33,564 nucleotides of DNA, taken from the NCBI GenBank assembly GCA_030066985.1, contig JASJAN010000072.1, positions 1 to 33,564 on the forward strand, written 5' to 3'. Below are positions 17 to 28,137 of this stretch, piece by piece (the stretch's first letter is position 1; each line of letters starts with the position of its first letter). This stretch comes from Desulfobacterales bacterium. Lineage in GTDB: Bacteria > Desulfobacterota > Desulfobacteria > Desulfobacterales > JAHEIW01. Under the pieces are notes generated by a model, which ran no database searches, had not been told where the DNA came from, and was given only the letters and a program-made list of their open reading frames with translations. A program made the position numbers and the translations under genes.

Positions 17-31
17 TCCGCCTGCGGCGGA
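17..31. repeat. 15-nt hairpin element, copy 1
   Basis: TCCGCCTGCGGCGGA forms a perfect 6-bp stem with a three-base loop. It replaces the 5' half of the anticodon arm in the first broken tRNA-Asn unit. The same 15-mer occurs at 117-131, 597-611, 18160-18174 and 28094-28108, with loop variants at 633-647 (TTC) and 18628-18642 (TAC). Confidence 0.9.
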
Positions 32-116
32 TTAACCACCGGGTTGTGGGAATAGTTGAAACTACCAACAAACTTTTTGAATAACCATATGATCCCCAGT
101 AGCTCAGTAGGCAGAG

Positions 117-131
117 TCCGCCTGCGGCGGA
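117..131. repeat. 15-nt hairpin element, copy 2
   Basis: This hairpin is identical to the one at 17-31 and sits at the same place in the second 100-bp unit. It therefore most likely copied along with the unit rather than inserting independently. Confidence 0.9.
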
Positions 132-192
132 TTAACCACCGGGTTGTGGGAATAGTTGAAACTACCAACAAACTTTTTGAATAACCATATGA

Positions 193-268
193 TCCCCAGT
201 AGCTCAGTAGGCAGAGCAGGTGGCTGTTAACCACCGGGTCCGCGGTTCGAGTCCGTGCTGGGGAGCCA
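193..268 (+). tRNA. tRNA-Asn (anticodon GUU)
   Basis: This 76-nt cloverleaf includes an encoded CCA end. The acceptor TCCCCAG (193-199) pairs with CTGGGGA (258-264), the discriminator is G265 and CCA is 266-268. The anticodon stem GGTGG/CCACC encloses the loop CTGTTAA with anticodon GTT. The T arm has the expected GTTCGAGTC core. It is the only intact copy in the window. The two partial copies directly upstream and the remnant at 585-655 share its sequence. A strong terminator follows at once, so it appears to be the last gene of its transcription unit. Confidence 0.96.
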
Positions 269-274
269 CTTTTT

Positions 275-303
275 AAAGGCCCAATCCTTTGGATTGGGCC
301 TTT
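275..303 (+). terminator. Rho-independent terminator after tRNA-Asn
   Basis: A perfect 13-bp stem (AAAGGCCCAATCC / GGATTGGGCCTTT) closes a TTT loop. It starts seven bases after the CCA end and is preceded by a run of T. As the stem is symmetrical it could act on either strand. Confidence 0.85.
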
Positions 304-321
304 GTATTTGGACAGCATAAG

Positions 322-615
322 ATGCCATTCTGGGTATACATTTTACAGGACGAGATAACCGGCAAGCTGTACAAGGGTCATACGTCAGATTTGCAGAGTC
401 GCCTAAAACGTCACAATAGTCATGAAGCAGGGTCAATGAGATATACCTACAAGCAAAAAGGCCCATGGAAACTGATATATTCAGAAGCGTACGCCACTCG
501 CAGTGATGCTATGAAAAGAGAAACGTTCTTGAAAAGCGGTCAGGGCCGTGAATGGATAAAAGTGAACATATTAAAACAGTCGCACAGTAGGCAGAGTCCG
601 CCTGCGGCGGATTAA
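322..615 (+). CDS. Small GIY-YIG nuclease domain protein
   Basis: This 97-aa protein is essentially one GIY-YIG domain of the YhbQ/UvrC-N type. The first motif is W4-V-Y-I, the second Y17-K-G. A basic helix follows (SRLKRH, with candidate catalytic Arg27), and the late acidic residue is Glu67 in KRE. The end GREWIK is typical of the family. I chose ATG 322 (MPFWVYIL) because the family begins there; the in-frame ATG at 289 lies inside the terminator hairpin. The last nine residues (SRQSPPAAD) are not family sequence: they are the broken tRNA-Asn at 585 onward and its hairpin read in frame. The gene sits between the intact tRNA-Asn and that remnant. Whether it cuts DNA is unknown; the domain call is firm and the role is not. 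Confidence 0.85.
   Translation: MPFWVYILQDEITGKLYKGHTSDLQSRLKRHNSHEAGSMRYTYKQKGPWKLIYSEAYATRSDAMKRETFLKSGQGREWIKVNILKQSHSRQSPPAAD
597..611. repeat. 15-nt hairpin element, copy 3
   Basis: TCCGCCTGCGGCGGA takes the place of ten bases of the anticodon arm in the tRNA-Asn remnant. The flanks join cleanly to tRNA sequence on both sides and no target duplication is visible. Confidence 0.88.
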
Positions 616-632
616 CCACCGGGTCCGCGGTT

Positions 633-647
633 TCCGCCTTCGGCGGA
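633..647. repeat. 15-nt hairpin element, copy 4 (TTC loop)
   Basis: TCCGCCTTCGGCGGA takes the place of ten bases of the T arm in the same remnant. The stem is identical to the other copies and only the loop differs. Confidence 0.88.
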
Positions 648-813
648 CTGGGGAGCGAATCAACAGTAAAAGGGAACCTATCAATGGATGGTACCCCTTT
701 TTGCGCTCGGTTTAAAAAAATCGTATGCAGAAGGTCACAAAATCAAATCAAAATATTTGCAAACTTTAGGCATATCGTGTAGGAAAAACGAAAAAATTTT
801 AAAGGAGGGAGCT

Positions 814-1314
814 GTGAAAACACTTGTTGCATACTACTCTGAAAGCGGAAATACGGAGATACTGGCCAAGGCAATTTACAAAGGTCTGGAGACAACCGAT
901 AATGACATCGTGCAAATCGACGATACCACAAATTTCGCAGCGTATGACATTATTTTCGTGGGGTTTCCAGTTCAAACTAGCAGTGTGCCCCCAAAAGTGG
1001 AAAAAGCGTTAAAACGTATCCCAGATGGCAAAATGCTGGCTTTATTTGGCACCCATGGCTCGCTGCGGGGCGGCCCGCTGGCTGTTTCAGCATTCCATTA
1101 TGCGATTACTCTGGCGGCTCAAGCAACGGTTATCGGTACCTTCGGGTGCCGGGGTGAGGTCAAAGCCAGTCTTCTGGAGGCCCTTATGAATAAGGCCGAA
1201 TATAGATTCTGGGCATTGGAGGCCCAGAGCGCCGAAGGGCACCCAGATGAAGCGGACCTTGAAGATGGCAAACAATTCGCCAATTTAATGCTGCAAAAAG
1301 CTGGACGGGTATAA
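814..1314 (+). CDS. Flavodoxin family protein
   Basis: This 166-aa cytosolic flavodoxin-fold protein presumably carries FMN for electron transfer. The N-terminal strand and phosphate-binding loop VAYYSESGNTEILAK (about residues 4-18) are diagnostic. The second strand IIFVGFPV (about 47-54) and the FGTHGS and FGCRGE loops correspond to the flavin-binding loops. GTG 814 is chosen as start because AAAGGAGGGA lies just before it; the in-frame ATG at 688 has no such site and its extension is not family-like. It stands alone between the tRNA region and a 570-bp gap. The redox partner cannot be told from context. Confidence 0.85.
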   Translation: MKTLVAYYSESGNTEILAKAIYKGLETTDNDIVQIDDTTNFAAYDIIFVGFPVQTSSVPPKVEKALKRIPDGKMLALFGTHGSLRGGPLAVSAFHYAITLAAQATVIGTFGCRGEVKASLLEALMNKAEYRFWALEAQSAEGHPDEADLEDGKQFANLMLQKAGRV

Positions 1315-1885
1315 CGGGCAGCAATTGACCTTCATTAGTATGGGTGAGTTGTGCCCTGTCTATGACAGATTTGGATACTCAAATCTGAAGGGTCTATTTG
1401 AGCCATCCGGCCAAATGAGTATGTGACCATTTCTCTCATATCTCAGGGGGCGACGTATTTCGATCACGGGTATTCGAAATTAAAATACGCCCCCTTCATT
1501 TCCTGCAAAACCATAACCCCCACTAAAGGCCTTGAATGGCCCTAAGGGCTTATTCAAGTTTTAGAGTCTCAGACAATATTCTTTTTATCATTTTGGAATT
1601 ATTATAAATATTTTAATTGCCGGTCTCATTTCGAGACCTTGCTTTCCATTTCTAACATGCCATCAAGTGTGACATCTTGCACAATATCCCAAGCGTTAAA
1701 AACAGGTAAAGATTTTGGCCATTTGAGCCGATAAAACAAGTGTCTTGGACCGCTGTTTTCTCTATTGTTCAGACTAGTATGTGTTGGGCAGCAAACTCTA
1801 TTCGATGCGCAACTGCCGTCTTATAAGCATATCAAAAGCCATATGTTAAAAAAGTTACATAAAATCATGTGTCTATAAACTAAAA
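1315..1885. other. Non-coding gap with short inverted repeats
   Basis: I see no gene in this 571-bp stretch. A hairpin lies at 1446-1494 (GGGGGCG..GTATTT with AAATACGCCCCC, interrupted by two bases) and could end flavodoxin transcription or be a relic repeat. A second perfect 6-bp hairpin, GGTCTC-ATTTC-GAGACC, is at 1622-1638. The last 300 bp are AT-rich and probably hold the kinase promoter. I could not pick a convincing -35/-10 pair, and no Shine-Dalgarno sequence precedes ATG 1886. Confidence 0.5.
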
Positions 1886-3601
1886 ATGGACCAAATTGCC
1901 AAAAATACGACGTCACAGAATCCTTCTGAACAGATACTGTCCACGCTGATCAATACGATTCCCAACCCGGCATTTTTTCGAAATAAAGATGGTGTGTTCA
2001 TGGATTGCAACACCGCTTTTGCTGAAAAAGTGCTCGGTACCTGCTGCGAAAACATTGTCGGACAATCGGTTTTTGATCTTCCCAACATTATTCCGGCAGC
2101 GCTGACGGATTTCTGTTTGCATAACGATAAAAAACTGCTCAGCCAGCCCGGTATCCAAAGCTACGAGGCGGCTATTAGATGTGCTGACGGTATTCAGCGC
2201 GATTTTTTGATGAGCCGATCGACATTTACCGACCATACTGGAAAGATTGCCGGTATCATCAGCGTTATGATGGACTTAACGGACCAAAATCGCGCTGAGA
2301 AACTGCTGCAGGATCGGACGGCCGAGCTAGTCAAATCCAGCGCGGAACTCAAACGCCAGATTAAAAAGCGCAAAAAAGCCAAGCGATCGGTTAAGCTGGC
2401 ACACCGTGAAATTGAGCACCTGATCTCTTCTTTACCGACAATTTTGATCGGTATAAGCTGCGATAAAGAAATAATTCATTGGAATGCCGTCGCTGCCAAG
2501 GTATTCAACATATCCGCCACCGATGTGATGGGAATCGAACTGGACTGCTGCGGCATCGATTGGGATTGGGACAAAATATCAGACGGTATTTCTAAAAGTC
2601 TCAACGATGGTTGCAACGTCCGGGTGGATAACATTCACTTTCGCAACTCTGATGGTGAGGATCGATACCTGGGGCTTTCGATTACGCCTTTTAAGGGCGA
2701 TGATCAGAACATTTCAGGTTTGACGATCATCGGAGCTGATATCACCGATCGCATCAAATTTGAAGCGCAACTGCATCAGTCTCAGAAAATGGAGGCCATC
2801 GGGCAACTGGCCGCCGGGATTGCCCATGAAATCAATACGCCGGCCCAATTCGTCGGTGACAACACCCGGTTTCTGCAGGATGCTTTCAGCGACCTGATCG
2901 AAGCCTGCAATTTGTATAAAGAATCCCTCGATACGGCTAAATCTGGCCCGTTGCAGGCCGAGCAGATTCAAGACATCGAAAAACGCATTGAAGAGCTGGA
3001 TATTGACTATCTCGAAGAGGAGGTCCCCCTGGCTATCGAGCAGACGCTCAAAGGCGTTGATCGCATCACCCATATTGTACAGGCCATGAAGATTTTTGCC
3101 CATCCGGGGGGAGAGGAAAAGGAACCCGTTGATATTAATAAAGAAATTGAAAAAACCATCATCATTACCCGTAATGAATGGAAATATGTGGCTGAATTAA
3201 AGACGGACTTCGATAGTGCTTTACCGACAGTGCCCTGTCATCGGGCGGAGTTTAACCAGGTGATTTTGAATTTGATTGTGAATGCCGCCCATGCGATTGC
3301 CGACGCAAAGGCGGACTCATCGGCTGAAAAGGGAACCATAAACATCAGCAGCCGCCAAACCGACAAGCATGCTGAAATTCGGATCAGTGACTCCGGCGTC
3401 GGTATTCCGGAGCATATCCGGCACCGCATATTTGATCTGTTCTTTACGACCAAGGAACCGGGCCGCGGAACCGGACAGGGGTTGGCGATTGCCCATTCTG
3501 TGATCGTTGACAAACATGGCGGCACAATTGACATAGAAACCAAAGAAAATCAAGGCACCACCTTTGTGATCCGGTTGCCCATAGACACCCTAAATTTGTA
3601 A
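1886..3601 (+). CDS. PAS-domain sensor histidine kinase
   Basis: This 571-aa soluble kinase has no membrane segment. Two PAS domains come first (about residues 17-135 and 178-292), separated by a very basic helical linker (about 138-175, KRQIKKRKKAKRS). The dimerisation helix carries the H-box AAGIAHEINTPAQF with His314 as the expected phosphorylation site. The ATPase domain shows an N-box (FNQVILNLIVNAAHA, near 460-475), DSGVGIPE (near 502), FFTTKEPGRGTGQGLAIAH (near 520-538) and GGTI. All motifs for autophosphorylation are present. The stop codon directly abuts the ATG of the receiver-HDOD gene, and that gene overlaps the next, so all three are probably co-transcribed. The signal sensed by the PAS domains is unknown. 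Confidence 0.92.
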   Translation: MDQIAKNTTSQNPSEQILSTLINTIPNPAFFRNKDGVFMDCNTAFAEKVLGTCCENIVGQSVFDLPNIIPAALTDFCLHNDKKLLSQPGIQSYEAAIRCADGIQRDFLMSRSTFTDHTGKIAGIISVMMDLTDQNRAEKLLQDRTAELVKSSAELKRQIKKRKKAKRSVKLAHREIEHLISSLPTILIGISCDKEIIHWNAVAAKVFNISATDVMGIELDCCGIDWDWDKISDGISKSLNDGCNVRVDNIHFRNSDGEDRYLGLSITPFKGDDQNISGLTIIGADITDRIKFEAQLHQSQKMEAIGQLAAGIAHEINTPAQFVGDNTRFLQDAFSDLIEACNLYKESLDTAKSGPLQAEQIQDIEKRIEELDIDYLEEEVPLAIEQTLKGVDRITHIVQAMKIFAHPGGEEKEPVDINKEIEKTIIITRNEWKYVAELKTDFDSALPTVPCHRAEFNQVILNLIVNAAHAIADAKADSSAEKGTINISSRQTDKHAEIRISDSGVGIPEHIRHRIFDLFFTTKEPGRGTGQGLAIAHSVIVDKHGGTIDIETKENQGTTFVIRLPIDTLNL

Positions 3602-5967: not shown

Positions 5968-6056
5968 AATAAGCTTCCATTTTAGGGTCTGACATACCCG
6001 AACAGAAGCGCACAAAATTTCAGCACAACATTTTGCAACAAATTGGTTTAAACACC

Positions 6057-6416: not shown

Positions 6417-6472
6417 GCCTGGCTCTCCTTAGACTGAAATATTGGAAAGTGGAAATATCATTGCTCCGATAT

Positions 6473-6500
6473 TTGACAGGGTTATCTCACGAATGATGAT
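6473..6500 (+). promoter_or_regulatory. Candidate sigma-70 promoter for yhbY
   Basis: A perfect -35 TTGACA (6473-6478) is followed after 16 bp by GATGAT (6495-6500), about 40 bp before the yhbY start codon. The -10 match is only moderate. Confidence 0.4.
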
Positions 6501-6542
6501 ATTTTTCAAATGACAAAAGAAGTGTTTTGATCAGGAGCATTT

Positions 6543-6854: not shown

Positions 6855-6875
6855 GCGAACCGGCCAACGGTCAGA

Positions 6876-9138: not shown

Positions 9139-9154
9139 TTGCCGGCGCTTTGTG

Positions 9155-9445: not shown

Positions 9446-9472
9446 CGGGTTCCTCATAGATGAAAAAGTTTT

Positions 9473-9590: not shown

Positions 9591-9598
9591 AGTTATAT

Positions 9599-17113: not shown

Positions 17114-17989
17114 TTATTTTGAAGTGGGGTTGGCATAGCAGAATAGACAATCATGATAGCAAGGATGCTGGCGGTAATCACCGATATCCACTGATATTTT
17201 ACAACCGCACCCTTTTTGGGTGCGCTGGCCGGTATCTCGTCTTAATGAGAGATTTCCACCATAAAGTGTTACCAGCAGATCATTTGGGATACAGGCGCTC
17301 TGTGTGACGGATGAATCATTCGCGAGCCCCACCGAAACATCCTTTTCACAACACAGCATCAGCTTTATATTTTTGGAAGCCAGCATTTTTTCCATTTTGA
17401 CGATAACCTGACGCTTGGTTTTCAAGGGGGCATCCCAAAATGAAAAATCAGGCCGATTTACTAAGCGTTTTTCGATTTTTGAATAAGGGTCCATAAAGCT
17501 GGTGATACAGCGTTTGATTCCGGTCTCTTTGGCCTTTACAGCGATGCGTCTCAGATCACTGAGATTGTCCTGAACCTTGTCATTGCCGCTTTTGAAAAAA
17601 CAGATGGGGTCAAAGCGCCAGTTGATTGCCGCAGGACCGAATTGGTCGCCGAGTTGTTGAAGCTGGTCGAGGCGGACATCCAGGGAGGAGACCTGCGGCT
17701 CAAGCTGAGGGGATGCTGAATTGACGGTAAAGTTGAAAAAAAGATGGTAACCGGCCTTCTGCAGTTGTTGGCCATATTGGTGCTTCAAAAACTGACCGAA
17801 ATCTTTGGACCAGAAAACGATCGTATGCACATTGGCCGGGGTGGCAGGGATTTTTTTGATATGTCGATTGAACGGATTGACGACTTCAAAAAAACCGCGC
17901 TCAATGCATTCCATAAACCAGGGCATATAAAATGCCGGAATATCGGTTCGTCTGGATGCCGAGATGACGATTTTAGGCTCAGGCTTCAA
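17114..17989 (-). CDS. DUF1848 family protein
   Basis: This 291-aa protein opens with the family signature ISASRRTDIPAFY. Further family blocks are VNPFN, IVFWSKD, FNFTVN and RFDPICF. The C-terminus is cysteine-rich: GCGC, then SVDIGDY, then CYHDCLFCYAN, suggesting an iron-sulfur cluster at the end of the chain. I recall DUF1848 proteins being compared with radical-SAM-like folds; the activity is undescribed as far as I know. The only start giving the complete signature is a TTG at 17989, with no Shine-Dalgarno sequence. The sequence just upstream is a patch of dispersed repeats, so the native start may have been altered by a repeat insertion. Confidence 0.85.
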   Translation of the reverse strand: MKPEPKIVISASRRTDIPAFYMPWFMECIERGFFEVVNPFNRHIKKIPATPANVHTIVFWSKDFGQFLKHQYGQQLQKAGYHLFFNFTVNSASPQLEPQVSSLDVRLDQLQQLGDQFGPAAINWRFDPICFFKSGNDKVQDNLSDLRRIAVKAKETGIKRCITSFMDPYSKIEKRLVNRPDFSFWDAPLKTKRQVIVKMEKMLASKNIKLMLCCEKDVSVGLANDSSVTQSACIPNDLLVTLYGGNLSLRRDTGQRTQKGCGCKISVDIGDYRQHPCYHDCLFCYANPTSK

Positions 17990-17994
17990 TGTTT

Positions 17995-18112
17995 CGGGTT
18001 ACGGGTTACCAGGTACCTGGGTTTCAGGTGTCGGGTGTCCAGCCTTCGCTTTGAAAGCTACGGCTTGGCAAGCAGGTTTCAGGCTTTATAGTTCCGCCGT
18101 TGGCGGTTCAGG
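17995..18112. repeat. Patch of dispersed short repeats and hairpins
   Basis: This 118-bp patch combines several repeat words: GGTTACGGGTTACC, CAGGTGTCGGGTGTCC, an imperfect hairpin AGCCTTCGCTTTGAAAGC followed by TACGGCTTGGC (about 18041-18070), and TCCGCCGTTGGCGGT (18093-18107), a variant of the 15-nt hairpin. The AGCCTTCGCTT hairpin recurs at about 21983-22015. No coding potential is seen. Confidence 0.7.
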
Positions 18113-18188
18113 TGTCAGGTGTCAGGTTTCAGGGACGGTCAGAAGGGCTGACACCTGAATCCGCCTGCGGCGGAACACCTGAAACCTT
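18113..18188. repeat. Direct repeat, left copy, carrying the 15-nt hairpin
   Basis: These 76 bp match 18581-18656 with only two mismatches, as a direct repeat 468 bp away. Internally they form an inverted repeat (TCAGGTGTCAGG with CTGACACCTGA). They carry TCCGCCTGCGGCGGA at 18160-18174, between two ACACCTGAA words. Confidence 0.9.
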
Positions 18189-18190
18189 TC

Positions 18191-18541
18191 CTACTTGCGT
18201 TTAAGATCTTCGAGCGATATTACCTTTGCGCCTTTTTCCTTTGGTGCGGCTTCTTTTTGCTGGCCTAAGGTCTCCTGCTTTTCTGACGGTTCTGATGTTT
18301 GGGTCTCGGCCGGACTTTCCACTTTCTCCAGGCGCATTTTTTTGCCGTTCATGGTAAATTCAGTGCCGCTAATGTATACGTCTTTCAAGATCCATGTGAC
18401 CACCTGCAGCGGAATTTGCAGTAGAAGTAATTTGACGTGATACCAGTCTTTTTTAGCGTCCGGCAATATGCTCTCTACGCGCGCAAAAGTGAGCGGCTTA
18501 TCTTCAAAGTGGATTAATACTAAATCATTTTCTTTGGTCAT
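18191..18541 (-). CDS. Small conserved protein, function unknown
   Basis: This 116-aa protein has an N-terminal half rich in beta strands (DLVLIHFEDKPLTFARVES, then WYHVKLLLLQIPLQVVTWIL). The charged, low-complexity tail (about 75-107) is rich in Glu, Lys and Ser. It ends VISLEDLKRK. AGGA about eight bases before the ATG supports the start. It has no known motif. It is enclosed by two nearly identical 76-bp direct repeats (18113-18188 and 18581-18656), so recombination between them would delete the gene. Confidence 0.7.
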   Translation of the reverse strand: MTKENDLVLIHFEDKPLTFARVESILPDAKKDWYHVKLLLLQIPLQVVTWILKDVYISGTEFTMNGKKMRLEKVESPAETQTSEPSEKQETLGQQKEAAPKEKGAKVISLEDLKRK

Positions 18542-18580
18542 TCAGTATATCCTGTCATAGGTTCAATATAAGGCTTCGGG

Positions 18581-18656
18581 TGTCAGGTGTCAGGTTTCAG
18601 GGTCGGTCAGAAGGGCTGACACCTGAATCCGCCTACGGCGGAACACCTGAAACCTT
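18581..18656. repeat. Direct repeat, right copy, carrying the 15-nt hairpin
   Basis: This partner of 18113-18188 differs at two positions, one in the hairpin loop (TCCGCCTACGGCGGA at 18628-18642). It lies in the promoter region of the 116-aa gene and downstream of the metallo-hydrolase gene. Confidence 0.9.
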
Positions 18657-18716
18657 GTATGGTAATGCTCAGGCGATCAGACCCATAAATTGTTTAACTA
18701 CAAGCTGTCTGTTGAA

Positions 18717-19430
18717 CTAAGGAATAGATTTGCGTGTTCCGATAGTCGGGTCATGGAGTGGTAGTATAATATCTGCCAGCTCTTTAATTTTTTGGATAGA
18801 ATCATAAGCCTCTGTCAGATCGATGTGGACACCAGGTGCAATGGCCGGTCCGGCTGACGGAAAATTTTTATCATTGCAGCAAAAACCGGTGATGACGGCA
18901 CGCCCCTCGCTGGTATTGACAGCCACCGATTGCCCGCCAACCGTATGTCCCGGTGATAAAATGACATCGATGCCGTCGGCAATACGAGCGTCACCGTCGA
19001 CTTCGATTACGTTGACATCATCGAGTATGTCCGGATAATACCGATGATCGACCGGATGGGGTTTCTTTAAAAAAGCATACTCCTTTTTCTGGACATACAC
19101 GTCTGCATTGGTGCATTTATAGTCATTTTCACAGTGATCATTATGTAAATGGGTATGGATGATGATATCAATGTCCTCGGGTTTTAGCTCTAAGGTTGCC
19201 AATGCTTCTTCAAATTCCAATATTTTAAATCCGCACTCCTTTTCAGCACCTTCGGGCACCATAAATTGTTCCAGGCCGGTATCGATTAAAATGTTCTGAT
19301 CACCGCCCTTTAGATAAAAGACATATATCGGCAGGTATATTCGTTTACCATAATCCCGTAAATAGGTCATAACACCTTGATCGGTTTCGTTAATGCCCAC
19401 AACCAGTGGATGAATGGTGTATTTTTGCAT
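18717..19430 (-). CDS. Metallo-beta-lactamase-fold hydrolase (AHL-lactonase-like)
   Basis: This 237-aa protein has the metal-binding signature HTHLHNDH (residues 92-99). The later family positions are LSPGHTVGGQS (near 155) and LHDPTI near the end, enough for a two-metal site. Length and the N-terminal layout resemble N-acyl-homoserine-lactonase-type members, but substrate cannot be told from sequence. ATG 19430 is chosen over the preceding TTG because GGAGG is five bases upstream of it. It has no signal peptide. It is transcribed alone, between the right direct repeat and a divergent TPR gene. Confidence 0.85.
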   Translation of the reverse strand: MQKYTIHPLVVGINETDQGVMTYLRDYGKRIYLPIYVFYLKGGDQNILIDTGLEQFMVPEGAEKECGFKILEFEEALATLELKPEDIDIIIHTHLHNDHCENDYKCTNADVYVQKKEYAFLKKPHPVDHRYYPDILDDVNVIEVDGDARIADGIDVILSPGHTVGGQSVAVNTSEGRAVITGFCCNDKNFPSAGPAIAPGVHIDLTEAYDSIQKIKELADIILPLHDPTIGTRKSIP

Positions 19431-19612
19431 CAAGGCCTCCTGCTTTTTCAGATATACAAACTGTCGATGATTTTAGTATCACGCATGCACCCAAAACCTG
19501 ATTAAGGACGAATGGGAAGCTTTTCAATAAAGGATTTTGAATGGATGATCAAGACTAAAACCTTTTTACCTCAAAATCAAGCATCAAGGATGCGGCTGAA
19601 GCGGCAATTTTT

Positions 19613-19641
19613 TTGACTTTCGGGCCAATTCACCATACAAT
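19613..19641 (+). promoter_or_regulatory. Sigma-70-like promoter for the TPR gene
   Basis: TTGACT (19613-19618) and TACAAT (19636-19641) are separated by exactly 17 bp. The start codon follows 37 bp after the -10. Five of six bases match consensus in each box. Confidence 0.7.
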
Positions 19642-19677
19642 ACAGTGAATTACTGTACTTACTTTTAGGAGCTTCTC

Positions 19678-20175
19678 ATGAAAACCCGATTCGTTACGAT
19701 AATCATATTCAGTTGCTTTTTGTCAGCTACGGTCATTTTCAGTATACCGAATTCCTTAATCGCCCAATCAAAAGCCACAACCAAGAGCCGGAAAGCCCAA
19801 AGGCCTTCGGCTGCAGTAAAAAAAGATGCCAATTACTGGTTTGAAAAAGGTGCCCTTGTTTCTACATACGGCAACAATACGGCCGCTGTTCAGTATTTCC
19901 ACAAAGCCATCGTCCTGGATCCGAATTTTAGCCGGGCCTATTTCTCACAGGGCGTATCATACGGTCAGCTGGGCCAGTATCAAAAGGCGATCGCGCAGAT
20001 TAATATGGCCATTCAGAAGGAGCCGCAAAACAGCCTGTATTATTACGGCAGAGGACGAGTTTACCTTCTATGGGGCAATAAGGAAAAGGCCATGGCTGAT
20101 TTTAGAAAGGCGGCCGAAATGGGTGATGAAGACGCTCTGGATTATCTGGAATATATCGGTGAAAATAAATCGTAA
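19678..20175 (+). CDS. Exported TPR-repeat protein
   Basis: This 165-aa protein has an N-terminal signal peptide (about residues 1-30, hydrophobic IIIFSCFLSATVIF). A basic linker follows (KATTKSRKAQR). About three tetratricopeptide repeats fill residues 50-155: YWFEKGALVSTYGNNTAAVQ, AYFSQGVSYGQLGQYQKAIA and YYYGRGRVYLLWGNKEKAMA. Such proteins are periplasmic or surface scaffolds. TAGGAG before the ATG and a good promoter support it as an independent gene. Partner unknown. Confidence 0.88.
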   Translation: MKTRFVTIIIFSCFLSATVIFSIPNSLIAQSKATTKSRKAQRPSAAVKKDANYWFEKGALVSTYGNNTAAVQYFHKAIVLDPNFSRAYFSQGVSYGQLGQYQKAIAQINMAIQKEPQNSLYYYGRGRVYLLWGNKEKAMADFRKAAEMGDEDALDYLEYIGENKS

Positions 20176-20640
20176 AACCAAAATAGAAGCTATCTTAAAA
20201 CTAGAAGATTACGCTCCCCGCATGAATGCGGGATTTCACATCTAATTTCAGCAGGTTAAGGTATTCAACAAAGCAAGGCGAAAACGACTCGGTTGCCCTC
20301 GGCCATGAACTCGGGCCGAATGGAGCCCTTCGGCCGTGAGCTACACTCGGCCTGAACTCATGTCGAAGACAAGCCAAACGGTTTCCCGCAGGTCGATTTA
20401 AAAGTGGAGCATGCACACTAGTATTCGATCATTCTGAATCTATTTTATGCATACCTTAGTGTTTTTAGAAATAAATGTATAATCCATTTTTTTTAGATAA
20501 CCCAGCCATTGAGCTTAGATGCATTTTTGAGATAGCTTCTAAATGCAATAGAAATTTAGCACATTAACCAGCGTCTGTCGCTTAAATGACAGTATTCTGA
20601 CACGTTTGGCCTAAAAACGTTATTAAACGTTTGCCGGGTA
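20176..20640. other. Non-coding gap with composite repeat
   Basis: After the TPR stop comes a small hairpin CCCGCA-TGAA-TGCGGG (about 20216-20231), a possible terminator. An inverted-repeat unit follows at 20257-20458 (ends TAAGGTAT and ATACCTTA). It shares a 40-bp block (AAAGTGGAGC..TAGTA..GAATC, 20401-20440) with the element at 24836-24979. A GC-rich stretch of small hairpins (about 20289-20384, TCGGCC/GGCCGA words) is embedded in it. From 20459 to 20640 I see only AT-rich sequence and no gene. Confidence 0.6.
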
Positions 20641-20680
20641 ATACCGGCGATAATCTAGAAAAAAATTCTCACTACCCTGG

Positions 20681-20736
20681 AAACCCCTCATCACCGATTA
20701 TCTGATAGTTGTTTTAGATACCGTGTCGAGGGGTTT
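20681..20736 (+). terminator. Terminator-like inverted repeat
   Basis: AAACCCCTC (20681-20689) pairs with GAGGGGTTT (20728-20736), followed by more T. The 38-base loop has an inner TATCT/AGATA pairing. It stands just upstream of the M4 peptidase promoter and probably insulates it. A short regulatory RNA ending here is possible but unsupported. Confidence 0.5.
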
Positions 20737-20755
20737 TTGTTTTGGGTGCAATTTA

Positions 20756-20783
20756 TTGACAATTAAACGCCTTGTTTTAATAT
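20756..20783 (+). promoter_or_regulatory. Candidate promoter for the M4 peptidase-emfourin unit
   Basis: A perfect TTGACA (20756-20761) is followed after 16 bp by TAATAT (20778-20783). The peptidase ATG is 75 bp downstream. Confidence 0.5.
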
Positions 20784-20858
20784 GGGGCAGCATCTTATGG
20801 TAACACTGCTGACGCAGACAATGAGTCAGCTCGCATGCCATCCCGAAAGGAGGCCGTT

Positions 20859-21896
20859 ATGGCGCATTATCAATGCAATTGCACATTTGTTCCGCCGCAG
20901 GTTCTGGAAAATCTGGCACGGGTCGGTGTGGACAATGCCAGATTGAGTATTCAGCAGAGTAAAATCAGCCGCAAAAAGCGTGCGGATAAACGCATCGATA
21001 TGAAAGCGTTTATAAGTGCCAAAACTAGGGCCAAGGCCAAACGCAAGGTTTACGACTGCCAGAACAAATGGGAGCAGCGCGTCAAGCTGGTCCGGGGTGA
21101 AGGTAAACCGGCAAGCGGTGACAAAGATGCCGACAGGGTTTACACGTTTGCCGGCAAAGTTCGCGACTATTTCAGCAAAGTGCTCAAGCGCAATTCCATT
21201 GACAACAAGGGTATGGATTTAATCCTCAATGTGCATTTCGGTCAGGATTACATGAATGCCTTCTGGGATGGCGATGAAATGACCTTTGGTGACGGCGACG
21301 GTGAAATATTTATCAGTTTTACCCGGTCGCTGGAGGTAGTAGCGCATGAACTGGCGCATGGCGTTACCCAGTTTGCGGCCGATTTGGAGTATTTCAGTCA
21401 GTCCGGGGCATTGAACGAACATTTTTCAGATGTTTTCGGCAGTGCCATAACGCAGCACGCCTTCAAACAGGATGCCGGCCAGGCGGACTGGCTGGTGGGC
21501 GATGAAATTATGGGGCCGGACCTTTACGGGGAATCGCTGCGCTCCATGCAGGCTCCCGGAACGGCCTACGATAATCGTCTCCTTGGCAAAGACCCGCAAC
21601 CGGCCCACATGAATGACTACTATACCGGCGATGATGACAACCAGGGGGTTCACATTAACAGCGGTATCCCCAATCGCGCCTTCTATCTGGTCGCCATGGA
21701 AATTGGCACTGATAAAGCCACGCTTATCTGGTACCACGCACTTCAGAAGCTATGGACGACAGCTAAATTTAATGACGCTGTCGACGTTATTGTTGACTCG
21801 GCCAGAATCCTAACCCGGCAAAAACAGGTGCCAGTGGGCTCAACCCAACAAGTCAGAGCGGCATTCAGGGAGGTGGGGCTGCCTCACTTGACGTAG
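20859..21896 (+). CDS. Protealysin-like M4 metallopeptidase
   Basis: This 345-aa zinc peptidase of the thermolysin family has no signal peptide. The short N-terminal part with CTFVPPQVLENLA resembles the protealysin-type propeptide (C-x-(I/F)-(V/I)-P-P), which is removed on maturation. Zinc ligands are His163 and His167 in HELAHGVTQF and Glu187 in NEHFSDVFG. Glu164 is the catalytic base and His265 in GVHINSGIPN the second catalytic residue. ATG 20859 is chosen because AAAGGAGG is correctly spaced; the in-frame ATG at 20835 precedes that site. Protealysin-type enzymes act inside or are released from cells and are typically encoded next to their inhibitor emfourin. That matches the gene at 22148. 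Confidence 0.93.
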   Translation: MAHYQCNCTFVPPQVLENLARVGVDNARLSIQQSKISRKKRADKRIDMKAFISAKTRAKAKRKVYDCQNKWEQRVKLVRGEGKPASGDKDADRVYTFAGKVRDYFSKVLKRNSIDNKGMDLILNVHFGQDYMNAFWDGDEMTFGDGDGEIFISFTRSLEVVAHELAHGVTQFAADLEYFSQSGALNEHFSDVFGSAITQHAFKQDAGQADWLVGDEIMGPDLYGESLRSMQAPGTAYDNRLLGKDPQPAHMNDYYTGDDDNQGVHINSGIPNRAFYLVAMEIGTDKATLIWYHALQKLWTTAKFNDAVDVIVDSARILTRQKQVPVGSTQQVRAAFREVGLPHLT

Positions 21897-22147
21897 GACT
21901 CACAGGTTTCGCATTTCGGGTCTTAAAAACGGGGTTTCAGGTGGCAGTCTCAAAGGTTCCGCCGTCGGCAGTTCAGGTGTCCAGCCTTCGCTTGGAAAGC
22001 TACGGCCTGGCAGGCAGGTGTCAGGTTTCAGGCAAGATTAGAGGGGCTGACACCCGACACCTGAACACTGAAACCTTGGGCATATGCCAGCAGCCCAAAC
22101 TATTAGGCGTGGCGGCAAGCCTAAACTGGACCCAATAGGAGACTACT
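21897..22147. repeat. Degenerate repeat patch between peptidase and inhibitor
   Basis: CAGGTGTCAGG-type words occur on both strands, with TCCGCCGTCGGCAGT (21958-21972, a decayed 15-nt hairpin) and the AGCCTTCGCTTGGAAAGC hairpin (about 21983-22015). The right arm is CTGACACCCGACACCTGAAC (about 22049-22068). The patch has no coding potential and separates two genes that normally lie close together. Confidence 0.75.
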
Positions 22148-22465
22148 GTGTATATTGAGTATAAATGTTCCGGCGGATATGGCGGGCTGCGCTTTGCATA
22201 TCAATGCGAAATTGATGACCTGCCTGCGGCGGAGGCCCAAAAAATTCTGGATTTGATAGATGCTGCCCGCGCTTTGGAATTGGACCCCAAGCAGATTTCC
22301 GCCAATTCCCGCAATATACCCGATGACTTTATCTGCCGCCTGACGTTATCAACCGATACAATAAATAAGACCTTGTCCTTCAACGAACTGAGCGCACCTG
22401 AAAACTTGCGCCGCCTGTCGGCTTATTTGCGAAAACTGGCCGCTCAACAGCCAAGTGCTCACTGA
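22148..22465 (+). CDS. Emfourin-like M4 peptidase inhibitor
   Basis: This 105-aa protein opens with strands around YKCSGGYGGLRFAYQCEID. It continues DDLPAAEAQKILDLIDAARA, then LTLSTDTINKTLSFNELSAP and a final helix LRRLSAYLRKLAA. This order (SGGxxGLR, LP..EA..L..L, C-terminal FNE and LR..L..L) matches the emfourin family, which inhibits protealysin-like peptidases. The assignment is strengthened by the M4 peptidase immediately upstream on the same strand. GTG start with AGGAG seven bases upstream. The two genes are separated by 251 bp of repeat DNA rather than a few bases. Confidence 0.82.
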   Translation: MYIEYKCSGGYGGLRFAYQCEIDDLPAAEAQKILDLIDAARALELDPKQISANSRNIPDDFICRLTLSTDTINKTLSFNELSAPENLRRLSAYLRKLAAQQPSAH

Positions 22466-22491
22466 TCCTTTCGGTCCCAAATCTTTTTCTT

Positions 22492-22521
22492 GAGACAAAT
22501 ACTTCAAAGCTATGATATACT
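22492..22521 (+). promoter_or_regulatory. Candidate promoter for the PPC-repeat gene
   Basis: GAGACA (22492-22497) and TATACT (22516-22521) are 18 bp apart, 70 bp before the start codon. The -35 is weak. Confidence 0.35.
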
Positions 22522-22591
22522 ACTTGCAGCGCATCAGAATCCGACAGGTTAATATCAGACCAGACTAGCGAATGGTTTTCGGGAAAAGAGA

Positions 22592-24517
22592 ATGAAAAAA
22601 AGACTTTTAGCTGCAGTTGGCATTGTGGTGGTCATCGCAGCCGGTTACCTGCTGTATTCCAGTTTAAGGACCAAACCCAACCCCTGCGCAAGCATATTTG
22701 ATCAAACTACGGTCAGCCTTGCGGAAAAGATCAATATCATTAAAAAACGGGGCAGCACTTTTTTAGATGACGAACAGTTTCAGCAACTCTTGGATCAATC
22801 GGCACAATTAACTGCCGATCTAAAAACCTGCTGTATTTTATTTCACGACGATAAGATTGTCTTTGATGAGTTTTTAAAATGCCAAGACGACTTTCGCCAA
22901 TACGAGCAAAGCATTGACCGGCTTTCACATCAGGTTGCCGAAGCGCAGGTGGCCAGACAACAGGAACGTTATGATCTTGTCAATTCAAGACTGGGCAACA
23001 TTGAGCGCAATCTAAAAGATTTGGCAGTCATTTCAAATCAGTTCCAGAGCCGAATGAGTAACTTTATTGCGCAACAGTCTGAAACCGGTTTGAAGCTGAC
23101 TCAAAGGTCAGAGAAAACAACCATCACCGAAGCAGAGCCCAATGATTCTTTTAACCAGGGCATGGAGATTTCCTCCGGCATTTTAACCGGGACCCTTTCT
23201 GGAGACGATCGGCAGGATTATTTTCGATTCGCCCTGGATCCCGGCAATATTTTAAACCTGGATTTTACCGCCGGTGACGACAGTGAGCTGATCAAAGTTG
23301 CCCTGCGGGATTTTGAAGGAAACGAGCTGTGGAATTCCGGTGAAACCGCTTCGGGGTCAACCCGCTCGATGCGCTTGCTGATGAACAATCTTTCAGCAGG
23401 GATCTACACTGCAGTAATTTATTCCGGTATCGGCTCTTACAAGCTTGATCTTTTCATCGAGCGCCAAAACGATGCCGGATCGGGGTCCGACGCTGGCGAC
23501 CGGATCACCAAGGCGCTCGCCATCGACACCAATAGCTCCTTTATCGGTGAGATGGGCGGTTTTGATGAAGAAGACTGGTATCGATTCGATATCCCGCCGG
23601 GCCATATTCTAAAACTTGCCTTCGGCCCCAGTGAGAGCAGTGAAGCGATGAAGTTTTCACTGAGAAGTTTTGAACACAGTGAAGTATGGTATTCCGGCGT
23701 GGTCCCAGCGGGTGAAACCAAGCTTAAACGCGTAATGATGAACACCACTTCCGGCGGGACCTATTATCTTGAAGCCTATTACGGCAGCGGACGCTACGGG
23801 TTTGACATTTATGTCGAATCGCAAAATGATGCGGCGTCCGGCGCTGATGCGGGAGACAAGATGGCGGATGCGCTTAAAATTGTGCCGGGTGGTGCTTTTT
23901 CCGGTGAGATGGGCGGCTATGATGAAAAGGACTGGTATCGATTTGATATGCCGGCCGGCAGCATCATGACAATGTCACTTACCAATGATAGCGAAGGCGG
24001 TCCGATTAAATTTGCCTTTCGCAATGTTGATGGTATCGAGATCTGGCGATCGGAAGACGTGCTGCCCGGAACCACGGCATCGACTCGTTTGATGACCAAT
24101 AACACCACCGGGGGTATCTACTTTCTTGAAGCCTTTGATGGCAACAGCCCTTACGAATTCGAAATTCGTGCTGAACAACAAAATGATGCCGGATTGGGTA
24201 AAGATGCCGGCGATCGGATTACCGAGGCCGTCAAGATCACAGCAGGGCGGTCCATTGCCGGAGAGTTGGGCCATCTGGATGAAGAAGACTGGTACTCGAT
24301 TTCAGACCGTGAAGGGAAATCCATTTTGTTTACAACGGCAACGGATGGTGAGCCGCTGAAGTTGTCGATCGGCAATGTTGCCCATCGAAAAGGGCTGTAC
24401 ACTGCTGAACTGAGACCGGGCACAACCAGAACTTTTGAGATCCCCAGAAATGTGCAACCGCCGTATTTTCTTAGGGTATACGGCGGTAGCGGTAAGTATA
24501 GCTTCGAAATCAAGTAA
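22592..24517 (+). CDS. Membrane-anchored protein with four PPC-like repeats
   Basis: This 641-aa protein has an N-terminal signal anchor (about residues 4-25, LLAAVGIVVVIAAGYLLYSS). An alpha-helical, coiled-coil-like region follows (about 40-165). Four beta-sandwich repeats of about 110-120 residues resemble bacterial pre-peptidase C-terminal (PPC) domains. Each carries an acidic DxxDWYRF-type core: RQDYFRF, DEEDWYRF, DEKDWYRF and DEEDWYSI. Linkers of the form QNDAGSGSDAGDRIT introduce repeats 2-4. No enzyme domain is present. PPC domains usually accompany secreted proteases, and the M4 peptidase is two genes upstream, but functional coupling is inference. A strong terminator follows. Confidence 0.82.
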   Translation: MKKRLLAAVGIVVVIAAGYLLYSSLRTKPNPCASIFDQTTVSLAEKINIIKKRGSTFLDDEQFQQLLDQSAQLTADLKTCCILFHDDKIVFDEFLKCQDDFRQYEQSIDRLSHQVAEAQVARQQERYDLVNSRLGNIERNLKDLAVISNQFQSRMSNFIAQQSETGLKLTQRSEKTTITEAEPNDSFNQGMEISSGILTGTLSGDDRQDYFRFALDPGNILNLDFTAGDDSELIKVALRDFEGNELWNSGETASGSTRSMRLLMNNLSAGIYTAVIYSGIGSYKLDLFIERQNDAGSGSDAGDRITKALAIDTNSSFIGEMGGFDEEDWYRFDIPPGHILKLAFGPSESSEAMKFSLRSFEHSEVWYSGVVPAGETKLKRVMMNTTSGGTYYLEAYYGSGRYGFDIYVESQNDAASGADAGDKMADALKIVPGGAFSGEMGGYDEKDWYRFDMPAGSIMTMSLTNDSEGGPIKFAFRNVDGIEIWRSEDVLPGTTASTRLMTNNTTGGIYFLEAFDGNSPYEFEIRAEQQNDAGLGKDAGDRITEAVKITAGRSIAGELGHLDEEDWYSISDREGKSILFTTATDGEPLKLSIGNVAHRKGLYTAELRPGTTRTFEIPRNVQPPYFLRVYGGSGKYSFEIK

Positions 24518-24530
24518 ACCTAAATGAGCG

Positions 24531-24598
24531 TTTCAAATTTTAAAAATGAAATTATTTTTTTTTAGGAATTCTGTCGATATTTATTTTAAAATTTGAAA
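24531..24598. repeat. 14-bp perfect inverted repeat after the PPC gene
   Basis: TTTCAAATTTTAAA (24531-24544) and TTTAAAATTTGAAA (24585-24598) are perfectly complementary around a T-rich loop. The preceding word GAGCGTTTC reappears as GAGCGTTCC near 24732. Confidence 0.65.
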
Positions 24599-24636
24599 TC
24601 CTTCGGACTTGCCGATCTTACCGCATCTACTGTGTC

Positions 24637-24680
24637 AAATGCCGTTCCGCATAGTCTAACTATAGCGAAACGGCATTTTT
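24637..24680 (+). terminator. Bidirectional terminator candidate
   Basis: AAATGCCGTTCCGC..ATAG (24637-24654) pairs with CTATAGCGAAACGGCATTT (24660-24678) with one mismatch and one bulge. It is followed by T on the plus strand and preceded by A-rich sequence for the minus strand. It lies between convergent genes. Confidence 0.6.
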
Positions 24681-24835
24681 CGTGTAGCTGCGGCAACCTC
24701 GACAATCGCTCAATTTTGATTTGGCCAAACTGAGCGTTCCAAATTAAAATATGGAAACCATCTAGTCTAATTGTTTTAAAGAACCTTTCTTTCACTTAAG
24801 CTTTCATTTTTAATATCTTAACAATAGTATAAACG

Positions 24836-24979
24836 GAAGCGGTTTCAAAACTTCAGATCACGCTCGAGGACAAGGCGTCAATTCGATTCGAAAGTGGAGC
24901 GTACACGATAGTACGCGAGCATTTTGAATCGAATTGGAACACAGTCATCGAGTGTTAAATGGAGTTTTCAAACCGCTTC
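24836..24979. repeat. 144-bp hairpin element, AAAGTGGAGC family
   Basis: The ends GAAGCGGTTTCAAAACT (24836-24852) and AGTTTTCAAACCGCTTC (24963-24979) are complementary with one mismatch. Inside, CAATTCGATTC pairs with GAATCGAATTG, and GCGTAC pairs with GTACGC at the tip. The outermost base of the right arm is the last base of the neighbouring gene's stop codon. A related copy lies at 20401-20440. Confidence 0.85.
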
Positions 24980-27939
24980 TATGGAATAATGACGCCCTTA
25001 GATTCCTTACCATCGATTTTAAGGAGCAGCGGTTTTTCAACGCTGACATGTCTTAAATGAGGGGTCTCCGCCTCAGCTGGCAATGACATTAGCCATTCCC
25101 AGTTGATAAAATCCTTTCCCCCTTCTGAGGTGTTCAGATAACTGATTCCCAATGAGGTAATGTTATGAAAAAAATGGGATCCCTGGGATGGGTCGGCCTT
25201 TAAACCCTCTATGGTGGTTTCTACAATCGCACCAACGCCCGAGATATCCGGCCAACGAACCGGAATCCCCAACCAGCGGTCGGCAGAACCCCAGCGCCCC
25301 GGACCGATCAGCAGGTATTTCTGATTGCGTCGGCGCATCTCCTTATTCACCTGTGCGATTTCTGACGCAATTTGGACGGTTTTGGCCGCATCAAAACGAT
25401 CCGGGTGCACGAAGATGATATCCCGTATCTCTTCAAATTGACCGTTGCCAAGCGCCATGGTTGAATAACAAAAGGCTTTAGAGATATCATCATCACGGAT
25501 CTCTACTGACAGATTGGATTGGTTGACGGCCATCGGCCTGATTTGCAACAGCTCAAATATGGGCTTCTGATCCGCGTCCAAGGGCATATTAACGGCAAAT
25601 TCAATTTCCACGGGGCAACCCATGCCCTGTCTGCCCATCGCCAGGATCTCAGTCAGGATTTCAGCTAAGGGCAGCGCATCGTATTTTAAAATGCTGGCAA
25701 AAGTGCATACCGGGTACCCGGACGCCTGAACGCCGTCACGGATGCGATGATCCTGGGCCGAGTAGGTGCTGCACAGGAGCCGCACAGGGGCATCGTGCAT
25801 GGCCGAATCGATATCGAGTTTTTCAAGGGTGGCGTCCTCATTGGTGAGAAGATCTTCTGGGAAACCGTTCAGGTTAAGCGCATAAAAGAAGCGTTGCGCA
25901 TTTTCCAAAATGTCGTCGACAGTGGAAAACTGAGGTAGAAACTGCGGATATCTGGGAGAAAAGCGCATTGCGGCGCCGCCCTCAACGACTATTCTTCCCA
26001 GTCCCAGGGCGATATGCGCCAGGCCATCATCAGGCTTTAAATATGAAATAGGGTAGTAATTGTAGGATTGCGCAACACCCGAGATCGCCGGATAAAAATG
26101 CTGCCCATAGGCCTCACCGGTCAGTTGCTGAATAACCACACCCATCTTTTCATCTTCGGTGCGGTGGAAAGTGCTTTTGACATAAGCGCGTGCGCTTTCG
26201 CAATAGGTGGAAGCATACACGAGTTTGATGGCCAGAGTGAGCTGTTTGTATCGTACGGCGAAGTCATCATCATTATTGGGGATCATGTAGGTTTTATAGA
26301 TGCCGGCAAACGGCTGAAATTGCGCATCTTCCAGCAGGCTGGATGAACGCACGGCCAGCGGGTAACGGGCGTGTTTCAGATAGTGATGCAGATCGCGTTC
26401 CAGCATCGCGGGCATGCGGGCATTTGCAAATAGCCGAATAATCTCCGGATCACTATCATCACCGGTGGCGACTTCGCCCAGATTATTCTCGCTGATAAAT
26501 GCATCAAACCCTTCTGTTGAAATCACCAGCGTTTTGGGAACCGTAATCGTGACATCTTTGAATTTTTCGTGAATTTCGGGTTGGTTTTTCAGGCGAGTCG
26601 ACATAAATGCCAACCCTCTGGCTTTGCCGCCCAGTGAGCCTTTGCCGATTTTGGAAAAATCCGTATCCGGGTCAAAACGGTCGGCATCAAATTCAGAAAT
26701 GATGCCTTTTTGGCGCCCCATGCGGCGGTCACGAATGATGGAGACCAGATACTGTTTGGCCTCGTGAACACTTTTAAAATCGCTGATTTTAACCGGTTTG
26801 AGTTTGGAAGCCAGCATGATTTCAGAACGCGCCATCAACCAGCTTGAAAAATGATTGCGGGTGGCATGATAAAAAACCGACTCATCCGGGACGGTCGGCA
26901 ATATTTTCTCCATTTCGCGCAAATCGGAGGCTTTGTCGATTTTTTTGCCGTCCGGCAGGCGAAAGATAAAATCGCCAAATCCCAGGTATTGCATAAAAAA
27001 GCTGCGTATTTCCGAATGTAGCGTTCCGGAATTTTTGTTTAAAAAAACGGCGGGTATGTTTTGCGCCTGTGCGCGATTGGACTCTTCGGAACTGAAATTT
27101 AGCAGCGGCAGATCAGGGTTGTCTTGCCGAATTTTTGAAAGCAGTTTAAAGCCGGCTTCGTCGTCGAGTTTATCGCTTTTGGGAAAACGAACATCGGAAA
27201 AGACACTGAGCAAATAAGGTTTATACTTCTGGTATAGATCGATGGCTTCTTCGTAGGTTTGGGCTACCAGAATTTTCGGCCGCGCACGCATCCTTAAAAT
27301 GCGGTGTTCATCATTAAGGGATTCTTCCATGACTGCCTGGGTTTGACTGACGATCTCTTTGTACAGCAGCGGCAGCAGTGATGAATAATAAATGGGTGAA
27401 TCTTCTACAATGATGATAACGCGCACCCATGCGCGTTGGGTGTCATAAGCGACGTTCAGGCGGTCTTCAAGGTTTTTAATCAAAGCCAGCAGCAGGTCTG
27501 AGTTTCCGAACCAGACATAAGTGCGGTCAATAAATGTTCGATCCGTATCCTGACGGTCGAGCAAATGCCGGCTGGTATTCTGAATCATCAAAAAAACGGG
27601 CAAGTCCGGAAACCGCGTTTTGATCTGGCGTCCCAACTCATATGCATCGGTTTCATCGACCTGCGGCATGGTGATGACCAGGTCAAATTTTTTTTGTGCC
27701 AGGATATCCAATGCTTCACGGGCAGAAGACACCCAGGAAAGCATCGGCGGACGGGAGAGGTTTAATCCGCGGTACTCATGTATGATGCGCTCGGCAAGGC
27801 GGCCTTCTTCTTCCATGATAAAGGCATCATATGGGCTGGAGACCAGAAGAATATCGGCGACCTTCTTGGCCATGAGCTCATGAAAAACCTTAAACGAAAG
27901 ATCAAAATCCGTCGGTTGTAGAAATCTTTGATTCATCAT
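24979..27939 (-). CDS. Receiver-receiver-PPDK_N fusion (PEP/pyruvate-binding domain)
   Basis: This 986-aa soluble protein begins with two receiver-like regions. The first (about residues 25-165) lacks the phosphoacceptor (LVITMPQVDE where a D is expected). The second (about 172-320) keeps VEDSP, VFSDVRFP with an Asp, and FLNKNS with a Lys. From about 425 to 810 it matches the nucleotide/PEP-binding domain of PEP synthase and pyruvate phosphate dikinase: GKGSLGGKARGLAFM, YPLAVRSSSLLED, FAGIYKTYM, VEIEFAVN and FELLQIRPM. The His swivelling domain and PEP-binding barrel are absent. A distinctive tail has LLIGPGRWGSADRW. It is therefore unlikely to be a complete PEP synthase. Function unknown. 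No Shine-Dalgarno sequence is evident at the start. Confidence 0.85.
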   Translation of the reverse strand: MMNQRFLQPTDFDLSFKVFHELMAKKVADILLVSSPYDAFIMEEEGRLAERIIHEYRGLNLSRPPMLSWVSSAREALDILAQKKFDLVITMPQVDETDAYELGRQIKTRFPDLPVFLMIQNTSRHLLDRQDTDRTFIDRTYVWFGNSDLLLALIKNLEDRLNVAYDTQRAWVRVIIIVEDSPIYYSSLLPLLYKEIVSQTQAVMEESLNDEHRILRMRARPKILVAQTYEEAIDLYQKYKPYLLSVFSDVRFPKSDKLDDEAGFKLLSKIRQDNPDLPLLNFSSEESNRAQAQNIPAVFLNKNSGTLHSEIRSFFMQYLGFGDFIFRLPDGKKIDKASDLREMEKILPTVPDESVFYHATRNHFSSWLMARSEIMLASKLKPVKISDFKSVHEAKQYLVSIIRDRRMGRQKGIISEFDADRFDPDTDFSKIGKGSLGGKARGLAFMSTRLKNQPEIHEKFKDVTITVPKTLVISTEGFDAFISENNLGEVATGDDSDPEIIRLFANARMPAMLERDLHHYLKHARYPLAVRSSSLLEDAQFQPFAGIYKTYMIPNNDDDFAVRYKQLTLAIKLVYASTYCESARAYVKSTFHRTEDEKMGVVIQQLTGEAYGQHFYPAISGVAQSYNYYPISYLKPDDGLAHIALGLGRIVVEGGAAMRFSPRYPQFLPQFSTVDDILENAQRFFYALNLNGFPEDLLTNEDATLEKLDIDSAMHDAPVRLLCSTYSAQDHRIRDGVQASGYPVCTFASILKYDALPLAEILTEILAMGRQGMGCPVEIEFAVNMPLDADQKPIFELLQIRPMAVNQSNLSVEIRDDDISKAFCYSTMALGNGQFEEIRDIIFVHPDRFDAAKTVQIASEIAQVNKEMRRRNQKYLLIGPGRWGSADRWLGIPVRWPDISGVGAIVETTIEGLKADPSQGSHFFHNITSLGISYLNTSEGGKDFINWEWLMSLPAEAETPHLRHVSVEKPLLLKIDGKESKGVIIP

Positions 27940-28009
27940 TTATTAGATTACGCTTGCTTCTGATTAACTGTACATACCAAAGATATGGCTATCACCAATC
28001 TATTGCAAG

Positions 28010-28137
28010 CAGGTGTCAGGTTTCAGGTGTCAGAGAAAAGATGCCTTGCAAAATCTGATGATTTTCAACAAGTTCAAATTCCTGACACCTGAATCCGCCT
28101 GCGGCGGAACACCTGAGTCCTATCTAGAGCTGACACC
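28010..28137. repeat. CAGGTGTCAGG-type element with the 15-nt hairpin
   Basis: CAGGTGTCAGGTTTCAGG (from 28010) is matched on the right by CCTGACACCTGAA (28081-28093). TCCGCCTGCGGCGGA follows at 28094-28108, then ACACCTGAGTCC and CTGACACCC. The hairpin again lies between two ACACCTGA words. The patch separates two minus-strand genes. Confidence 0.85.

Follow-up and report, generated by a model that had tools for sequence, protein, structure and literature searches.

The window, the whole stretch of DNA analyzed here, comprises positions 1 to 33,564 of contig JASJAN010000072.1 (assembly GCA_030066985.1, forward strand) from a Desulfobacterales bacterium, and is contig 72 of the 81 contigs that make up the 5,067,010 bases of the source genome (G000). 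It carries copies of a 15-nt hairpin, TCCGCC-NNN-GGCGGA, whose repeat unit is TCCGCCTNHGGCGGA, a 6-bp stem with a 3-nt loop that begins with T. On balance we favor the view that this hairpin is mobile: a palindromic element of very small size that was inserted with loss of target bases and was then copied together with its host repeats. An earlier interpretation of the window made from its letters alone (the sequence-only reading) had placed perfect stems at 17, 117, 597, 633, 18160, 18628 and 28094, all seven of which were confirmed, and decayed forms at 18093 (TCCGCCGTTGGCGGT) and 21958 (TCCGCCGTCGGCAGT), both of which are present. The hairpins and their hosts in the window are as follows.

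17..31, plus strand: hairpin TCCGCCTGCGGCGGA, replacing 10 nt of the anticodon arm in a defective tRNA-Asn copy (tandem unit 1)
117..131, plus strand: hairpin TCCGCCTGCGGCGGA in tandem unit 2, an identical 100-nt unit
193..268, plus strand: intact tRNA-Asn with anticodon GTT, to which both tRNA-copy sites correspond; it has no hairpin
322..615, plus strand: GIY-YIG nuclease-like open reading frame (ORF) of 97 amino acids, whose final codons extend into a hairpin-bearing tRNA copy
577..657, plus strand: defective tRNA-Asn copy with two hairpins
597..611, plus strand: hairpin TCCGCCTGCGGCGGA at the anticodon-arm position, CAGGTGGCTG replaced
633..647, plus strand: hairpin TCCGCCTTCGGCGGA at the T-arm position, CGAGTCCGTG replaced; the congener loop here is TGC
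18093..18107, no strand assigned: decayed form in which 5 of 6 stem pairs remain
18107..18188, no strand assigned: array of CCTGACA/CCTGAAA-like heptamers, host of the hairpin at 18160
18160..18174, plus strand: hairpin TCCGCCTGCGGCGGA, missing from the orthologous spacer of congener G001
18575..18656, no strand assigned: second heptamer array, 96% identical to that at 18107..18188
18628..18642, plus strand: hairpin TCCGCCTACGGCGGA, missing from the orthologous G001 spacer
21958..21972, no strand assigned: decayed form within a related array
28094..28108, plus strand: hairpin TCCGCCTGCGGCGGA, missing from the orthologous G001 spacer

The seven perfect copies represent three or four contexts and not seven events: those at 17, 117 and 597 share one host, a defective tRNA-Asn unit present in several copies, and those at 18160 and 18628 lie within 82-nt repeats that are 96% alike. 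The sequence-only reading had named tRNA genes among the hosts; these hosts are indeed tRNA-derived, but they are defective copies, and the intact tRNA-Asn carries no hairpin. Among the 17 hairpins in the window with a 6-bp stem and a 3-nt loop, the TCCGCC stem occurred in 7, whereas each of the 10 others occurred once. An Rfam search of the window at the gathering score returned tRNA as the sole match and no hairpin family.

Counted against composition, as the sequence-only reading had proposed, the 15-mer was found at 155 places in the source genome (127 with G or C in mid-loop and 28 with A or T), where 0.32–0.59 would be expected per 5.07 Mb (Markov orders 1–3; window or congener composition); it is thus about 300 times above chance. 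The reversed-pattern control was found at 0 places in the same genome. A chance origin is largely refuted by this excess, and so is the idea of an intrinsic transcription terminator. The hairpin is GC-rich, folds as RNA at -8.9 kcal/mol and is mostly intergenic, as a terminator might be, but a T tract adjoined it on either side in only 15 of 139 occurrences, terminator calling picked out none of the window hairpins from 17900 to 28300, and no concentration was seen in convergent spacers. Hairpin density was 2.65 per kb in tandem, 2.82 in convergent and 1.96 in divergent spacers, with no clear preference; the loci had been picked around hairpins, so only the spacer classes are comparable with one another.

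The contexts of 132 of the 155 places were examined. By ORF calling on these loci, 10 of the 132 occurrences lay inside genes, with one plausible in-frame copy in a lipoprotein-like ORF (L103). For a wider comparison, 207 distinct flanked sites were assembled from the source genome (125), G001 (44), G003 (9), G024 (7) and four genomes of family f41 (22), and were clustered when one flank matched within 3 mismatches of 16; a looser rule (4 mismatches of 14) was discarded, as it joined contexts with no relation to one another in a single group of 125. Fifty-five flank clusters resulted, of which 28 held a single site, and the dispersed family across unrelated contexts that had been proposed for the window holds genome-wide. 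The hosts include heptamer arrays (CTGACACCTGAA-hairpin-ACACCTGAAACC), CGGGCTCAAC arrays, several MITE-like palindromes, defective tRNA-Asn copies and unrepeated DNA, and one palindromic host family carries the hairpin at several different positions.

The first loop base was T on one strand at 199 of the 207 sites and in 54 of the 55 flank clusters, where 44% would be expected (p 1e-18 by clusters). This contradicts the freely varying loop of the sequence-only reading, and of the loops it listed (TGC, TTC, TAC, GTT), GTT, like GTC, stems solely from decayed forms. No further outward pairing beyond the six pairs was present at 62 of 108 sites, which sets the T-A pair as the limit of the unit. 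Of 110 cluster edges, 82% had a pyrimidine as the base immediately outward (p 9e-12), followed by T, A and A. A variant that keeps the stem but has a loop of 9 nt (TCCGCC-AATATTCGT-GGCGGA) occurred 8 times in 287 kb of source-genome sequence, for example at L007 and L082, inside the same palindromic hosts. Such a variant would suit a larger transposon with TCCGCC ends, of which the 15-mer would be the remnant after internal deletion or excision. But when loops of 0–40 nt were scanned in the same 287 kb, only those of 3 and 9 nt recurred (22 and 38 nt were seen once each), and this origin appears quite improbable.

Comparison with hairpin-free counterparts indicated that the 15-mer stands in place of 5, 8, 10, 11 or 13 nt. 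Up to three counterparts were considered per site; many long-gap matches were chance, and the short recurrent ones were relied on. In the following examples the replaced bases are given between slashes. Five nucleotides were replaced in heptamer hosts, in AAGTTGG/ACTTA/TTACGA (a G024 host), in TTAATAA/CGCAG/C and in ATTCAAA/CAGTG/C; 8 nt in GAATACTAT/CGTGTATG/CTCCAC; 10 nt in GGCTA/TAGTTAACTA/TGCC; 11 nt in TTTGCA/CGATGCAGTCG/CTGAT; and 13 nt in ATCTAA/CACAGTAGATGCG/GTAAG (left flank GGCATCTAA). In the tRNA-Asn copy, 10 nt were replaced both in the anticodon arm (GCAGAG/CAGGTGGCTG/TTAACC) and in the T arm (GCGGTT/CGAGTCCGTG/CTGGGG). The host of L105 and L109 showed a net gain of the hairpin plus 4 nt relative to hairpin-free copies. 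The direction of change is certain for the tRNA copies because the intact tRNA-Asn gene adjoins them; at the other hosts the change would likewise have been an insertion.

Presence and absence of the hairpin were further compared with one congener. Contig 27 of G001 is syntenic with the window, with genes 77–90% identical, and the tRNA-Asn locus with its GIY-YIG ORF and hairpin-bearing tRNA copies is common to both. At the T arm the loop is TTC in the source genome and TGC in G001, while the stem is identical. The hairpins at 18160, 18628 and 28094 do not occur in the orthologous G001 spacers, which are rearranged and hold arrays of related short repeats in another arrangement. Within window positions 1–657, the order of tandem defective tRNA-Asn units, intact tRNA-Asn, GIY-YIG ORF and defective tRNA-Asn copy with two hairpins is preserved in G001 despite diverged DNA between the parts.

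The sequence-only reading had taken intact stems beside varying loops as the mark of a selected structure. Stem and loop were therefore compared in samples anchored on host flanks alone, with the 15-mer unconstrained, which retained 28 of 37 rows for host F1 and 31 of 78 for host F3; the rows dropped held no hairpin-like 15-mer, being hairpin-free, of the 9-nt-loop form or unrelated. Perfect stems were present in 22 of 28 (F1) and 19 of 31 (F3) copies. Counted by copies, deviations from the consensus affected 6 of 336 stem positions against 10 of 84 loop positions in F1 (Fisher p 2e-4), and 20 of 372 against 19 of 93 in F3 (Fisher p 2e-5). Counted by distinct variants, the contrast was marginal (p 0.06 and 0.04, respectively). 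The six F1 stem changes were about as common as flank changes, 11 of the 28 copies having one of 17 flank bases altered, with the flanks limited by the search itself. Two-sided stem changes that preserve pairing were absent from the 168 pair cells of F1 and present in 4 of the 186 of F3, each time as T-A to C-G in the outermost pair. The lower rate of stem change per copy thus stands, whereas its force fades by distinct variants and part of the original pattern came from searching for intact stems. A selected structure is possible, with purifying selection on the stem not demonstrated by these counts, and insertion followed by host-repeat copying accounts for the pattern equally well.

The same data bear on whether the 15-mer might be retained because a phylum-conserved DNA- or RNA-binding factor recognizes it, its copies persisting through use. 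The recurrence of one stem and of loop T in many families, the greater variability of loops by copies and the T-arm copy whose loop changed between congeners while its stem was kept would all fit a bound site. However, the hairpin was not enriched by gene arrangement, the F1 stem changes were uncompensated and about as frequent as those in the flanks, G001 lacks three of the window sites, and most genomes of the phylum sample hold next to no copies. Such a role seems unlikely.

In a sample of the order, at least 10 copies were found in 45 of 291 genomes, belonging to 18 families, and at least 50 copies in 12. In a sample of the phylum, at least 10 copies were found in 26 of 395 genomes, 24 of those outside the order, while most genomes had 0–3. 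The reversed-pattern control reached 10 copies in 1 of 291 and 2 of 395 genomes, respectively. Amplified copies recur in scattered genera across Desulfobacterota. Among the 150 sites listed for the phylum sample, which include 5 of the 26 genomes with at least 10 copies, loop T was present at 48 of 50 listed sites of these five high-copy genomes versus 53 of 100 listed sites of 46 low-copy genomes. True copies can therefore be told from chance matches independently of the source genome.

A mobile element would draw together the abundance, the conserved loop T, the matched counterparts with and without the hairpin, the presence and absence between congeners and the bursts across the phylum, all of them direct observations. 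In the proposed course of events, the hairpin would be written into a new place with loss of a short target stretch (recurrently 5, 8, 10, 11 or 13 nt), and insertion would favor intergenic DNA and AT-rich purine/pyrimidine edges (outward YTAA). Further multiplication would come through the targets, most of which are themselves dispersed repeats (heptamer arrays, MITE-like palindromes and defective tRNA copies) whose duplication and recombination would carry the hairpin along. Presumably, a trans-acting enzyme and a single-stranded hairpin intermediate would take part, and the target loss would belong to the same event as the insertion.

The chief competing account holds that the hairpin is an old passenger, taken up long ago by a small number of host repeats, and that its spread reflects transposition, duplication and recombination of those hosts. 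It gains from the five largest flank clusters taking 109 of 186 sites, from loops that track the host (GGA in F3/F4, TGA in F5a, TGC in F1) and from L058 and L059, in which the left flank of one host position is joined to the right flank of another. Against it, 28 of the 55 clusters are single-site, two separate places of the tRNA-Asn copy were replaced by the hairpin, and a hairpin with the same loop rule has been amplified in other hosts and other families; we regard it as doubtful.

Several observations weigh against the mobile element that we favor. L058 and L059 resemble recombinants between two hairpins of one host, which makes the cluster count an overestimate of insertions; the hairpin of host F5a goes together with an adjacent diagnostic base change, as for one event copied with the host; and sites were picked by an intact stem, so that old decayed copies are under-counted. 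No target-site duplication was recognized between hairpin-bearing and hairpin-free counterparts, and the target loss is variable in length rather than constant. No insertion was observed between near-identical strains; the sole congener compared is about 80% alike with rearranged spacers, which gives orthology of spacers and not base-by-base correspondence. Finally, checks of Y1 transposases and GIY-YIG nucleases yielded no enzyme candidate, reverse transcriptases not having been searched for, and the loci of about 3.3 kb around the source genome's three Y1 transposase genes (PF01797) held 0 exact hairpins.

One of these Y1 genes holds a 2-mismatch hairpin match inside the gene. A RAYT as the mover is unsupported, as no exact copy lies near any of the three. 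The GIY-YIG ORF adjoins hairpin-bearing tRNA copies in the source genome and, judged by position and similar sequence, in G001; as a mover it was set aside, only 4 GIY-YIG matches being present in the source genome and 1 of them near a hairpin. A stronger form of the mobile-element view, in which much of Desulfobacterota has retained machinery dedicated to writing TCCGCCTNHGGCGGA into the genome with target deletion as part of the reaction, would make the unit, with nothing but a recognition hairpin as its genetic content, smaller than any described mobile element; we hold this as a tentative possibility.

No description of this hairpin was found in a literature search of incomplete coverage. 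By analogy, the 15-mer is best grouped with very small mobile palindromic repeats, resembling cyanobacterial SDRs and yeast mitochondrial GC clusters, and it appears to rank among the smallest mobile DNA elements on record. The cyanobacterial SDR elements, reportedly described by Elhai et al. in 2008, are said to be very short dispersed hairpin units in tandem heptamers and mini-transposons, for which mobility was proposed; they measure 21–27 nt. The 15-mer is likewise under about 30 nt, present in 155 copies above chance and set in unrelated contexts that include heptamer arrays and palindromic hosts. It differs in its length and sequence, in replacing short target stretches where the SDR splits a fixed octamer, and in being found in Desulfobacterota. 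Rickettsia palindromic elements also occur in diverse contexts including genes, but are much longer than 15 nt, whereas copies of the 15-mer are nearly all intergenic. The palindromic GC clusters of yeast mitochondria (GC42) are GC-rich, mostly intergenic and present or absent between relatives, with loops that vary more than stems, and target duplication is reported there for them (PMC4478555). The 15-mer shares the GC-rich palindrome, the mostly intergenic location, the presence/absence between relatives and, counted by copies, the greater variability of loops; however, no flanking short direct repeats were recognized at it, and it is bacterial rather than organellar. REP/REPIN elements with RAYT transposases are short extragenic palindromes in hundreds of copies, and the GTAG class has stems of 5–13 bp and loops of 2–20 bp, a range that would cover the 15-mer (PMC3116915, PMC3733652). 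The 15-mer differs in that the flank profile of 47 oriented clusters gave no GTAG or CGTC tag at the stem foot and in lying beside none of the Y1 transposase genes.

If mobile, the hairpin would come close to the minimum size that a mobile DNA element can have. The spread of sub-30-nt repeats would then become testable, with a defined unit, known hosts and hairpin-free counterparts, and high-copy and copy-free relatives in one phylum. The 15-mer explains much of the short-repeat clutter in the spacers of environmental Desulfobacterota, and such hairpins should not be read as terminators or operators.

Further arrangements were noted around individual copies. At L106 (166–2569), a long inverted repeat surrounds a histidine-kinase-like gene and carries a hairpin in each arm (loops TGC and TCC); the two sites were rejected as transposon ends, given the histidine kinase between them, and the long inverted repeat remains. 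At L117, near position 1068, a hairpin lies at the exact center of a longer perfect palindrome (AAGAATCATCAG-hairpin-CTGATGATTCTT), an arrangement suggestive of the copying of a hairpin-capped end. The DUF1848 gene at window positions 17114–17989 is cut down in G001 to a stretch matching 33 residues, and hairpin-bearing sequence lies in that region (L215, about 11354). Both ends of the contig consist of exact tandem repeats (1–200, 100-nt units; 33356–33564, 104-nt units), which are probably where the assembly broke.

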